Shown here in pieces: positions 19,656-22,360 of a stretch of DNA of 64,000 nt; within the stretch, counting starts at the first letter, position 1; each line of letters begins with the position of its first letter. A model generated the notes under the pieces. It was not told where the DNA came from and made no database searches. It saw only the letters and a program-made list of their open reading frames with translations. The DNA comes from Nocardia takedensis NBRC 100417. Lineage in GTDB: Bacteria > Actinomycetota > Actinomycetes > Mycobacteriales > Mycobacteriaceae. Where the stretch lies: assembly GCF_000308695.1 (NCBI RefSeq), contig NZ_BAGG01000028.1:1-64000 (forward strand). Direction: 5' to 3'. The position numbers and the translations under genes were made by a program.

Positions 19656-20144
19656 CTATCGCGGTGCGGACGGGCGGGCGGTGGTGTCGCCTTTGTCGAT
19701 CGCGCCCTCGATCTCGTCGAGCGCGGTGCGGATGAGGGCGCCGTAGTCGTCGTCGGGCAGTGCGGACAGGTGGGTCCTGGCGGCGGCGAGTTCGCGGTGG
19801 GCGGCGGTGAACGAGCCGAGGCGGCGGTAGTTGTCGGCGAGGTTGAGGTGCAGGGACGGGTAGAAGCCGCGCTCCCGCAGTCCCGGATGGTGGGCTTCGG
19901 TGCGCTCGTCGGTGAGCGCGTGGGCGGCGTCGAGGGCGCGGACGTCCCAGGCCAGTGCTTCGGCGGGGTCGTCGTGGAGGTCGGCGAGGTGGTGGGCGAG
20001 AGTGCAGCGGTGCAGCGGATCGCCGAGCGGCCCGAGTTCGGCCCAGAGCCGTTGGAGTCCGGCCCGTCCTCCGTCGCGGTCGCCGCCGCGAGCGCGGGTG
20101 ACGGCTGCGGTGATCGCGTCCATGGTCGCGTCGGTGGTGGTCAC
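19656..20144 (-). CDS. Helical-repeat (TPR-like) protein
   Basis: The 162-residue protein is largely alpha-helical with helix pairs that look like degenerate tetratricopeptide repeats, such as CTLAHHLADLHDDPAEALAW and LHLNLADNYRRLGSFTAAHR. Such proteins mediate protein contacts. The GTG at 20144 has AAGGAG five bases upstream. It follows the MerR/beta-clamp fusion gene by 37 bases on the same strand, so it is the third gene of a probable CDF transporter operon. No catalytic motif is visible and the function is unknown. Confidence 0.65.
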   Translation of the reverse strand: MTTTDATMDAITAAVTRARGGDRDGGRAGLQRLWAELGPLGDPLHRCTLAHHLADLHDDPAEALAWDVRALDAAHALTDERTEAHHPGLRERGFYPSLHLNLADNYRRLGSFTAAHRELAAARTHLSALPDDDYGALIRTALDEIEGAIDKGDTTARPSAPR

Positions 20145-20181: not shown

Positions 20182-21201
20182 TCAACGCCTGCGGGGCATG
20201 ACGAGCGTGGTGAGGTCGCCGTCGGTGGCGGAGCGCACCACGACCGGTTGATCGGCGGCGGCCAGGTCGAGCATGACGTCGGGACCGAGCGCGCCGGTGA
20301 CGGCGGCGGCCAGACTCGAAGGGCTGAACGCCACCTCGAGGAGCGGGCCGCTGCCGGACACCGGGATTCGGACGTCCCCGAACACGACGGCGTCGGCCCC
20401 CACCGCGCACGGCGCCGGATCGTCGGCTCCTTCGAGCACGTCGAGCAGGGCGGCGCGGTCGATCACGACGCGTGTGCGCACGGGGGCCAGGGCCGCGAGC
20501 ATGCCGCGATAGTCGGGGAATTCGCCGTCGACGCGGGCGCAGTCGGCGGTCAGGTCGCCGCCGCGCACGGTGACGGCGTGCTCGGCGGGGATCAGCGTGA
20601 CGGTCTCGCGGCGGCGCAGGCGTTCTCGCAGGCCGGCGAGGTCGTCGGCCCGGACGACGGCCTGCCATCCGTGCTCGGTCGGCGGGCCGCTGATCGAACG
20701 GGTCGAGAGGCGGTAGCGGTCGGTGGCGGTGAGCGTGAGCGTCCCCGCCGCGACCTCGAGCAGCACTCCCGTCAGCACCGGGATGGCGGGATCGCGGGAC
20801 GCCGCGCCCACCACCTGACCGATCGCCTCGGCGAGCACCGCGCCGGGCACGGTGACGCCGCCCGCGCCGAGGACCTGTTTGACGGCGGCGGCGACCGAGG
20901 CGGCCTGTTCCGCGCGTCGGTTCAGCGTCCGGACGTGGTCGTCCAGGATCGCGGCGGCGGCGTGTGGATCACCCGCCAGGATCTCGGCGACGGCGTCGAG
21001 CGGCAACCCGATCTCGCGCAGTCGCCGGATCAGGACCGCGCGTTCGCACTGCGCGGGGTCGTAGTAGCGGTAGCCGGTGACGGGGTCGACGCGGGCGGGG
21101 ATGAGCAGTCCGCCGTCGTCGTAGAACCGCAGCGCGCTGGCGGTGAGTCCGCTGGCGCGCGCCACGGCGCCGATGGTGATCAGCGGGTCGGTATCGGTCA
21201 C
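20182..21201 (-). CDS. MerR-family regulator fused to a DNA polymerase III beta-clamp-like domain
   Basis: Residues 1-110 of this 339-residue protein form a MerR HTH (ITIGAVARASGLTASALRFY, GYRYYDPAQCERAVLIRRL) with its dimerisation helix. Residues 115-339 resemble domains 2 and 3 of the DnaN sliding clamp: PVLTGVLLEVAAG, LTLTATDRYRLSTRS, GEFPDYRGML, then LEVAFSPSSLAAAV and a terminal TTLVMPRR. Clamp domain 1 is missing and the HTH takes its place. It is more likely a transcription factor whose sensor is a clamp fold than a replication factor. It starts 33 bases after a CDF metal exporter gene in the same operon. The inducing signal is unknown. Confidence 0.85.
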   Translation of the reverse strand: MTDTDPLITIGAVARASGLTASALRFYDDGGLLIPARVDPVTGYRYYDPAQCERAVLIRRLREIGLPLDAVAEILAGDPHAAAAILDDHVRTLNRRAEQAASVAAAVKQVLGAGGVTVPGAVLAEAIGQVVGAASRDPAIPVLTGVLLEVAAGTLTLTATDRYRLSTRSISGPPTEHGWQAVVRADDLAGLRERLRRRETVTLIPAEHAVTVRGGDLTADCARVDGEFPDYRGMLAALAPVRTRVVIDRAALLDVLEGADDPAPCAVGADAVVFGDVRIPVSGSGPLLEVAFSPSSLAAAVTGALGPDVMLDLAAADQPVVVRSATDGDLTTLVMPRRR

Positions 21202-21234
21202 CGGCTCAGCATGGGCCCTCAGGTAGCCCGAAGG

Positions 21235-22284
21235 TCAAGCGCGGTGCACCGGTCCGTGCGCTTCGGCGCAGTGCTCGTCCTCCGCCACGGGGCCGCCGCG
21301 GACGTGGTCGACCTGGAGGGTGGTGTGCTCCACCCCGTACTCGTCGTGCAGCAGCGCTTCGACCCGCGAGCGGATGGCGTGGCAGTCCGCGCCGCGGTCG
21401 ACCAGGATGTGCGCGGAGAGCGACGGTTCGCCGGAGGTGATGACCCAGACGTGCAGGTCGTGCACCTCGGCGACCTGGTCCGCGCCGACGATGGCCGCGC
21501 CGATCTCGTCCGGGTTCAGATGCGCGGGGGCCGCTTCCAGGAAGATGCGCCCGGATTCGCGCACCAGCGACCAGCCCGCCTTGATCATCAGCGCGGCCAC
21601 CACGAGCGCGGCGATGGCGTCGGCGCGCGGGTAGCCCGCCAGCCAGACCACGGCGCCCGCGACGGCCGTGCCGATGAAGGCGTAGAGGTCGTTGAGGATG
21701 TGCTGCAAGGCCCCTTCGACGTTGAGGCTGGTCCGGTTGGCGCGGCTGATGCTCCACGCGGCGAGGATGTTGACCAGGATGCCGACGAGCGCGGTGATGA
21801 GCACCAGCGGGCCTTCGACGTCGGGCGGGTCGATGAGTCGGGCGATGCCCTCGTAGACGAACCACGCGGCCAGCAGCAGCAGCGTGATGCCGTTGGCCTG
21901 CGCGGACAGGATCTCGGCGCGTTTGTAGCCGTAGGTGTACTGGCCGCCGGCCGGGCGGCGGGACAGGCGGATGGCGATCAGCGCCAGCACGATCGAGGCC
22001 GCGTCGGTGAGCATGTGCGCGGCGTCGGTGATCAGCGCCAGGGACTGCGCGATGACGCCGACGACGACTTCGGCGGCCATGAAGACCACGATGAGCGTGA
22101 GCGCGATGCTCAGCCAGCGCGGATCGGAGTCGGCGGTGACGCCGTGGTCGTGGCCCTCGTGTCCGTGGTCGTGTCCGTGCTGGTCGGTGTGGTGCGGTTG
22201 TTTCCGCGTCGCGGATGCCGCGGCGGCGCGCGTCGGCGCGAGCGCGTCCGCGGCGCCCCCGTCGGACAGGCAGTGCTCACCCAT
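21235..22284 (-). CDS. Cation diffusion facilitator (CzcD-type) metal exporter
   Basis: The 349-residue protein has a His/Asp-rich N-terminal segment (DQHGHDHGHEGHDHG, residues 34-48) and six membrane helices. Helix 2 carries the metal site LITDAAHMLTDAAS and helix 5 HILNDLYAF. A cytoplasmic C-terminal domain has VHDLHVWVITSGEPSLSAHI. It should export Zn2+, Co2+, Cd2+ or similar ions in exchange for protons. The ATG at 22284 is chosen over 22353 because the palindromic operator then lies in the leader rather than in coding sequence. It heads a probable operon with the MerR/beta-clamp and helical-repeat genes. Confidence 0.92.
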   Translation of the reverse strand: MGEHCLSDGGAADALAPTRAAAASATRKQPHHTDQHGHDHGHEGHDHGVTADSDPRWLSIALTLIVVFMAAEVVVGVIAQSLALITDAAHMLTDAASIVLALIAIRLSRRPAGGQYTYGYKRAEILSAQANGITLLLLAAWFVYEGIARLIDPPDVEGPLVLITALVGILVNILAAWSISRANRTSLNVEGALQHILNDLYAFIGTAVAGAVVWLAGYPRADAIAALVVAALMIKAGWSLVRESGRIFLEAAPAHLNPDEIGAAIVGADQVAEVHDLHVWVITSGEPSLSAHILVDRGADCHAIRSRVEALLHDEYGVEHTTLQVDHVRGGPVAEDEHCAEAHGPVHRA

Positions 22285-22338: not shown

Positions 22339-22360
22339 TGCAGACATGCGCATGTCTGCA
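22339..22360. promoter_or_regulatory. 22-bp perfect palindrome upstream of the CDF exporter
   Basis: Two 11-base half sites, TGCAGACATGC and its exact complement, meet without a spacer, 55 bases before the CDF start codon and about 200 bases before the divergent methyltransferase. Metal-responsive ArsR/SmtB- and MerR-family regulators bind dyads of about this length; the MerR fusion encoded in the operon is the obvious candidate. Confidence 0.6.

Follow-up and report, generated by a model that had tools for sequence, protein, structure and literature searches.

Transcription regulators of the MerR family carry metal-, redox- or drug-binding domains. The window analysed here, a stretch of 64,000 nucleotides from Nocardia takedensis NBRC 100417 (contig NZ_BAGG01000028.1), encodes a protein in which a MerR helix-turn-helix (HTH) is joined to part of the DNA polymerase sliding clamp (DnaN), and the question raised by this locus is what such a clamp fragment binds and which genes the protein controls. 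In the literature searched, which covered few subscription journals, no description of a piece of the replication machinery serving as a MerR sensor was found. The answer favoured here, with moderate confidence, is that the MerR head and clamp domains 2-3, with a partial pocket, form a one-component sensor whose ligand likely enters the pocket, upon which the fusion would switch on its own predicted promoter and the tetratricopeptide-type (TPR) gene behind it. The features on which the argument rests are collected in Table 1.

Table 1. Features of the fusion locus, with positions counted from the first nucleotide of the window
Feature	Position	Strand	Basis or remark
MerR-clamp fusion protein	20182..21201	-	339 aa, GTG start, predicted leaderless
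MerR winged helix-turn-helix, residues 8-76	20974..21180	-	Pfam MerR_1 E 1.2e-17; AlphaFold2 model
Predicted 35-residue helix, residues 79-113	20863..20967	-	AlphaFold2 secondary structure
Sliding-clamp domain 2, residues 115-236	20494..20859	-	Pfam PF02767 E 4.4e-16; structure match
Sliding-clamp domain 3, residues 243-339	20185..20475	-	phrog_947 over 113-338; structure match; alignment
Pocket motif TDRYRL, residues 160-165 (E. coli T172-L177)	20707..20724	-	alignment
Pocket motif FPDYR, residues 228-232 (P229 = E. coli P242)	20506..20520	-	alignment
C-terminal pocket motif LVMP, residues 333-336 (M335 = E. coli M362, P336 = P363)	20194..20205	-	alignment
MerR-type promoter sequence	21208..21238	-	pattern in 49/52 loci; predicted
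TPR-fold partner, 162 aa, 37 bp after the fusion	19656..20144	-	pLDDT 91.7 model; TPR-fold matches
CDF cation exporter, judged outside the fusion unit	21235..22284	-	TIGR01297 249.9 bits
Perfect 20-bp palindrome GCAGACATGCGCATGTCTGC, before the CDF gene	22340..22359		judged to belong to the CDF gene

The sequence-only reading had described a MerR DNA-binding domain fused to domains 2 and 3 of a sliding clamp, with the HTH standing in for clamp domain 1, and both points were borne out by Pfam, by the AlphaFold2 model and by structure comparison. The HTH scores 64.2 bits against MerR_1 (cut-off 21.6) and is present as a DNA-binding domain in the predicted model, while the clamp part superposes on DnaN domains 2-3 with an rmsd of 1.8 Å over 225 residues. 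A three-domain clamp is absent, as Pfam and the model find domains 2-3 only. The search with clamp-domain profiles which that reading had proposed recovered domain 2 and left domain 3 under the Pfam cut-off (PF02768); in the alignment, domain 3 is diverged and shorter at the ring-interface helix. Against the DnaN model TIGR00663 the fusion reaches 67.4 bits (cut-off 137.65), and the TipAS domain PF07739 is not among its Pfam matches up to E 0.1. The helix between the two parts is the expected dimerisation helix, a role suggested by analogy with the MerR family.

Relatives had been anticipated in databases under clamp or MerR names, and a protein search found at least 843 at E ≤ 1e-10. Among the 120 matches listed, 'DNA polymerase III subunit beta family protein' and 'MerR family transcriptional regulator' are two of the names in use, and those with a named source come from Nocardia, Rhodococcus and Prescottella. 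In a set of 60 genomes, the window's own included, 27 of the 36 belonging to its genus match at E ≤ 1e-37. Across the class, 31 of 394 genomes match at E ≤ 1e-25 in a single-sequence search, which undercounts divergent members (genome G077 was found by profile only). The presence of the fusion is patchy, which is an accessory pattern. Named members come from Nocardia, Amycolatopsis, Rhodococcoides, Streptomyces, Microtetraspora, Salinispora and Dactylosporangium, and eight plasmid records (Streptomyces, Kitasatospora, Embleya) also hold a fusion; among the matches listed for 296 genomes of the phylum, those spanning both HTH and clamp all fall in the window's class. Two DnaN matches occur in seven of the 60 genomes (G075, G077, G095, G096, G097, G113, G114), the second being 43-48% identical to the window's DnaN; no link with the fusion was seen in this set, where only G077 of the seven also has a near-full-length fusion match.

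Fifty-seven distinct loci were compared (58 stretches were collected, of which L088 duplicates L035; L085 and L113 share one genome), and they were divided by tblastn score against the window protein into subfamily A (at least 174, 41 loci), to which the window protein belongs, and subfamily B (at most 129, 16 loci). One locus, L112, was shifted by hand from A to B because its score summed two MerR genes. A single clade for A and B together was not rejected (p-AU 0.64).

The partner-binding pocket of DnaN lies between domains 2 and 3. According to the available text of PMC11139829, the clamp-binding motif of every known partner docks in it, and single-stranded DNA can bind there as well; antibiotics of the griselimycin and mycoplanecin type bind the same site, as stated in the available part of PMC10817943. 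The retention of this pocket was assessed with the E. coli residue list given in the former source, at positions at least 80% conserved in actinobacterial DnaN, over the 75 family rows, out of 83, that are shorter than 400 aa and over 31 DnaN rows, the window genome's own DnaN being twice among them. At 16 pocket positions, 67% of rows in A and 80% in B retain the DnaN residue; at 90 positions outside the pocket the figure is 37% (p 0.003 for A and 2.6e-5 for B, values which treat positions as independent). Each position of TDRYRL carries the DnaN residue in 95-100% of subfamily A rows, and M335 and P336 are invariant across all 83 rows in the alignment. Part of this conservation may come from folding needs. 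Retention is unequal within the pocket: subsite I stands at 0.83 in both subfamilies, and subsite II at 0.73 in B and 0.33 in A, the group of the window protein, in which N320, Y323 and R365 are replaced.

The ring-closing interface on domain 3 is not retained in the fusions, as judged from E304 and the I272/L273 stretch in the alignment. E304, a buried partner in the ring interface according to the available text of PMC11139829, from which the interface residues were taken, is present in 100% of DnaN rows and kept in 3% (A) and 0% (B) of the fusions, figures which are less sure because the surrounding region is gappy; the I272/L273 stretch is missing from the window protein. A ring dropped while much of the pocket is held is the pattern expected of a ligand-binding domain. 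The clamp part had earlier been proposed as a sensor or a dimerisation module: the first role now appears probable, and the second unlikely, since the ring-interface residues are gone and the AlphaFold2 model offers a 35-residue MerR-type helix for that role. That subsite II is largely lost argues for a ligand of A which differs from that of B and is perhaps smaller. For the same reason, subfamily A may be unable to accommodate griselimycin or a complete clamp-binding peptide. Some fusions contain long inserts, eight of the 83 rows reaching at least 400 aa; in N. bovistercoris (L033, 5992-7383), about 110 residues interrupt clamp domain 3 where residues 277 and 278 of the window protein adjoin.

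Directly ahead of the start codon, the minus strand of the window reads TTGACC-TTCGGGCTACCTGAGGGCC-CATGCT-GAGCCG-GTG, with the -35 element TTGACC at 21233-21238, the -10 element CATGCT at 21208-21213, a 19-bp spacer containing an imperfect dyad, and 6 nt between the -10 and the GTG. MerR promoters typically hold their operator within a spacer of 19-20 bp (available text of PMC9909328), and the predicted promoters of the fusion loci share this trait, with exactly 19 bp. Of 52 loci, 49 carry the strict pattern TTGAC-N20-nAnnnT-N5..8-[AG]TG at the start of the fusion (37/38 in A, 12/14 in B), where mononucleotide shuffles lead to an expectation of 0.005 loci; other spacers following TTGAC[CT] occur in no locus at 15-18 or 20-23 bp and in one at 14 bp. 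Once the start is read from the DNA, the pattern is present in 55 of the 57 distinct loci, the additions being L086 and L110 (the two B misses) and four of the five loci outside the set of 52; of the remaining misses, L036 has TGGACC and L115 starts too close to the contig edge. The consensus is TTGACC TTCGAGTTGGTTGAAGCCC CATGAT in A and TTGACC CTCGACCTGGTCGAGGGCC CAGGGT in B. With the start codon 5-8 nt past the -10, the mRNA would be leaderless. Four of the eight plasmid loci were opened and all four show the pattern; at one of them, L262, the in-frame start lies beyond the GTG picked by it.

An exact-pattern scan of 44 genomes, 35 with the fusion and nine without, recovered the operator pattern at the promoter of the fusion in each of the 35. 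Elsewhere, 44 matches occur in the 35 fusion genomes and 12 in the nine others, which is 1.3 per genome in both groups. Because the off-fusion matches equal this per-genome background, the fusion unit probably regulates itself and has few if any further targets. A small number of genuine sites elsewhere may nevertheless exist, since the 44 off-fusion matches exceed the 13 found with the backwards pattern in the same 35 genomes.

This promoter also bears on the relation of the fusion to the CDF exporter gene, which lies 33 bp upstream on the same strand and with which the sequence-only reading had grouped it in an operon, taking the palindrome for the operator of the fusion. Neither assignment is supported. 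The stop codon of the CDF gene overlaps the -35 of the fusion, which as a result need not rely on the CDF promoter; a CDF homologue is found in six of the 57 fusion loci and directly upstream in only five, all in Nocardia, and the conserved companion is instead the downstream TPR gene, on which the sequence-only reading had been silent. The palindrome occurs in only two of 60 genomes (the window's own and G034), and identical copies in L033 (N. bovistercoris) and L068 lie ahead of the CDF gene each time, as in the window; it is probably the operator of an unlinked metal regulator. Metal-sensing MerR proteins such as ZntR, CueR and CadR have conserved metal-binding cysteines around the dimer helix and the C-terminal loop. 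No such set is conserved in the helix/loop region of the fusions; cysteine columns filled in at least 25 of 83 rows are found only at residues 30 and 221 of the protein, and the scores of the fusion fall far below the curated ZntR, CueR and CadR cut-offs. It is therefore very improbable that the fusion is a metal-responsive regulator through which Zn, Co or Cd induces the CDF gene from the palindrome, even if the proximity of the two genes and the repetition of their order would suit it, given that their promoter sequences are separate and that the fusion's own operator is present at 55 of 57 loci.

The downstream partner, with a predicted TPR fold and generic TPR matches, reaches no Pfam or NCBIfam cut-off. 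It adjoins the fusion in 38 of the 41 subfamily A loci, near full length in 36 and as remnants of 32 and 39 residues in L034 and L091, and behind B-type fusions in none of 16. Locus L085 was placed in B by score, its tree position and operator being near A; moving it gives 38/42 for A and 0/15 for B. In L089, fusion and partner form one open frame of 544 codons. The partner also follows the fusion on three of the four plasmid loci opened. The pair stands together on actinobacterial plasmids in L259, L260 and L261, with IS or transposase genes near it in L259 and L261. Partner adjacency and the single in-frame fusion suggest physical contact, and on that basis the clamp part could be a mere structural or dimerising scaffold, or could bind the TPR protein as a co-regulator, with no other ligand involved. 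This is unlikely, as subfamily B, with the best-kept pocket, has no partner, a clamp-binding-like motif is present in only one of 38 partner members, and the ring interface is lost.

In 11 of 14 B loci, the fusion is not followed by a same-strand gene within 100 bp. In L085 and L112 an MFS transporter gene follows immediately with a 4-bp overlap, and the next gene in L106 is 60% identical to the L112 transporter. The L085 transporter scores above the Pfam MFS cut-off; Mef, Tap and Tet(V) are among the nearest NCBIfam models, none of which comes near its cut-off.

The TPR family is broader than the fusion, being present in 85 of 394 genomes versus 31, and it also occurs without it. Among 17 fusion-free paralogue loci read, the TPR gene lies behind what we take to be a uracil-DNA glycosylase-like gene in eight, all in one genus (L149-L153, L155, L156, L166), and behind a presumed UvrD-like gene in one, names which come from reading the sequences and, for the glycosylase, from one of its cluster. 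The genes involved suggest that the family may touch DNA repair. The window genome itself has a second copy (G000, L147, contig C246:32820-33248) next to a gene resembling short-chain dehydrogenases, and no fusion was called in its vicinity.

Such neighbours, together with the range of partners and the single-stranded DNA that the clamp pocket accommodates (available text of PMC11139829), would suit a sensor of replication or damage stress, in which the pocket takes the clamp-binding motifs of polymerases and repair proteins, or DNA freed at stalled forks, and the TPR partner acts in repair. We consider this unlikely. Inherited gene order could account for the glycosylase adjacency, which is confined to one genus; the called neighbours of the fusion include no conserved repair gene (a DnaB-like gene is found in three loci), the patchy presence in 31 of 394 genomes better fits an accessory trait, and subsite II is degraded in subfamily A.

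Mobility and phage-related matches have likewise to be weighed. A complex of the clamp with Gp168, presumably a phage protein, is among the structural matches (7evp), the HTH part has one PADLOC match (mad1), and the fusion-TPR pair is also carried by Streptomyces plasmids near transposase genes, all of which would agree with an anti-phage switch whose clamp part is a decoy sensing phage proteins that bind the host clamp. The TPR partner, however, matches none of the families in PADLOC (E 0.1) or PHROG (E 0.01), and no defence gene is prominent among the recurrent neighbours, the PADLOC scan having covered the fusion and the partner. This role is very unlikely.

Several known systems resemble the fusion in part. 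The TipA/AlbA class (PF07739, TipAS) shares with the fusion the MerR HTH, a long linking helix, a C-terminal ligand domain and autoregulation, the last being predicted for the fusion. TipA proteins are minimal autoregulated multidrug-resistance systems according to the available text of PMC7762955, and a candidate counterpart of this trait is the operator-like site detected by pattern search before the fusion's own gene. The difference lies in the ligand domain, a clamp fragment rather than TipAS, and in the TPR gene behind it in subfamily A. BmrR similarly combines a MerR HTH with a large C-terminal effector domain (available text of PMC7762955) and has a 19-bp promoter (PMC9909328, in the available text), but its effector domain has a GyrI-like fold where the fusion has a clamp fold. 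DnaN itself shares domains 2-3 and pocket subsite I; unlike DnaN, the fusion has no domain 1 and no ring interface and carries a DNA-binding HTH. The second clamps GriR and MypR of the griselimycin and mycoplanecin clusters are clamp homologues tied to clamp-directed antibiotics, as the fusion may be, but they are described as DnaN-encoding self-resistance genes and not DNA-binding regulators (available text of PMC10817943, in which the words 'MerR' and 'regulator' occur 0 times).

By this analogy, the fusion most likely works like TipA, with the clamp fragment as its ligand domain. The promoter layout, the retained pocket residues, the altered ring edge, the adjoining partner gene and the MFS transporters directly behind three fusions speak for this reading; the reduced subsite II of A, the occurrence of the partner family without the fusion, its absence from B loci and the lack of a link with second DnaN genes weigh against it. 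As known for MerR proteins in general, a dimer seated on the spacer dyad would keep the over-long promoter inactive or weakly active, and ligand binding would twist the HTHs, under-wind the spacer and align the -35 and -10. The clamp part would never encircle DNA and would take the place that TipAS and GyrI-like domains have in other MerR regulators. The least certain step concerns the ligand, which would be a clamp binder, either a clamp-directed peptide antibiotic of the griselimycin or mycoplanecin type or a clamp-binding peptide that belongs to a protein of the cell or of a phage. As sites beyond the fusion's own promoter are at background level, the output would probably be the fusion itself and the TPR protein, and the fusion could titrate the ligand, as TipA does. 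A more specific version is tentative: the clamp fragment possibly binds clamp-poisoning peptide antibiotics (griselimycin, mycoplanecin or undiscovered kin) in the drug's own target pocket and switches on a cassette that titrates, exports or counters the drug.

Clamp inhibitors are a class of antibiotics of current interest. If the pocket is the sensor, the fusion would provide a ready-made reporter for such inhibitors and a guide to their producers; if it responds to antibiotics in particular, cassettes of this kind would flag unknown clamp-directed compounds. Among the loci compared, one fusion copy (L114, 5471-6510) is apparently frame-disrupted, with both the promoter sequence and the partner present.
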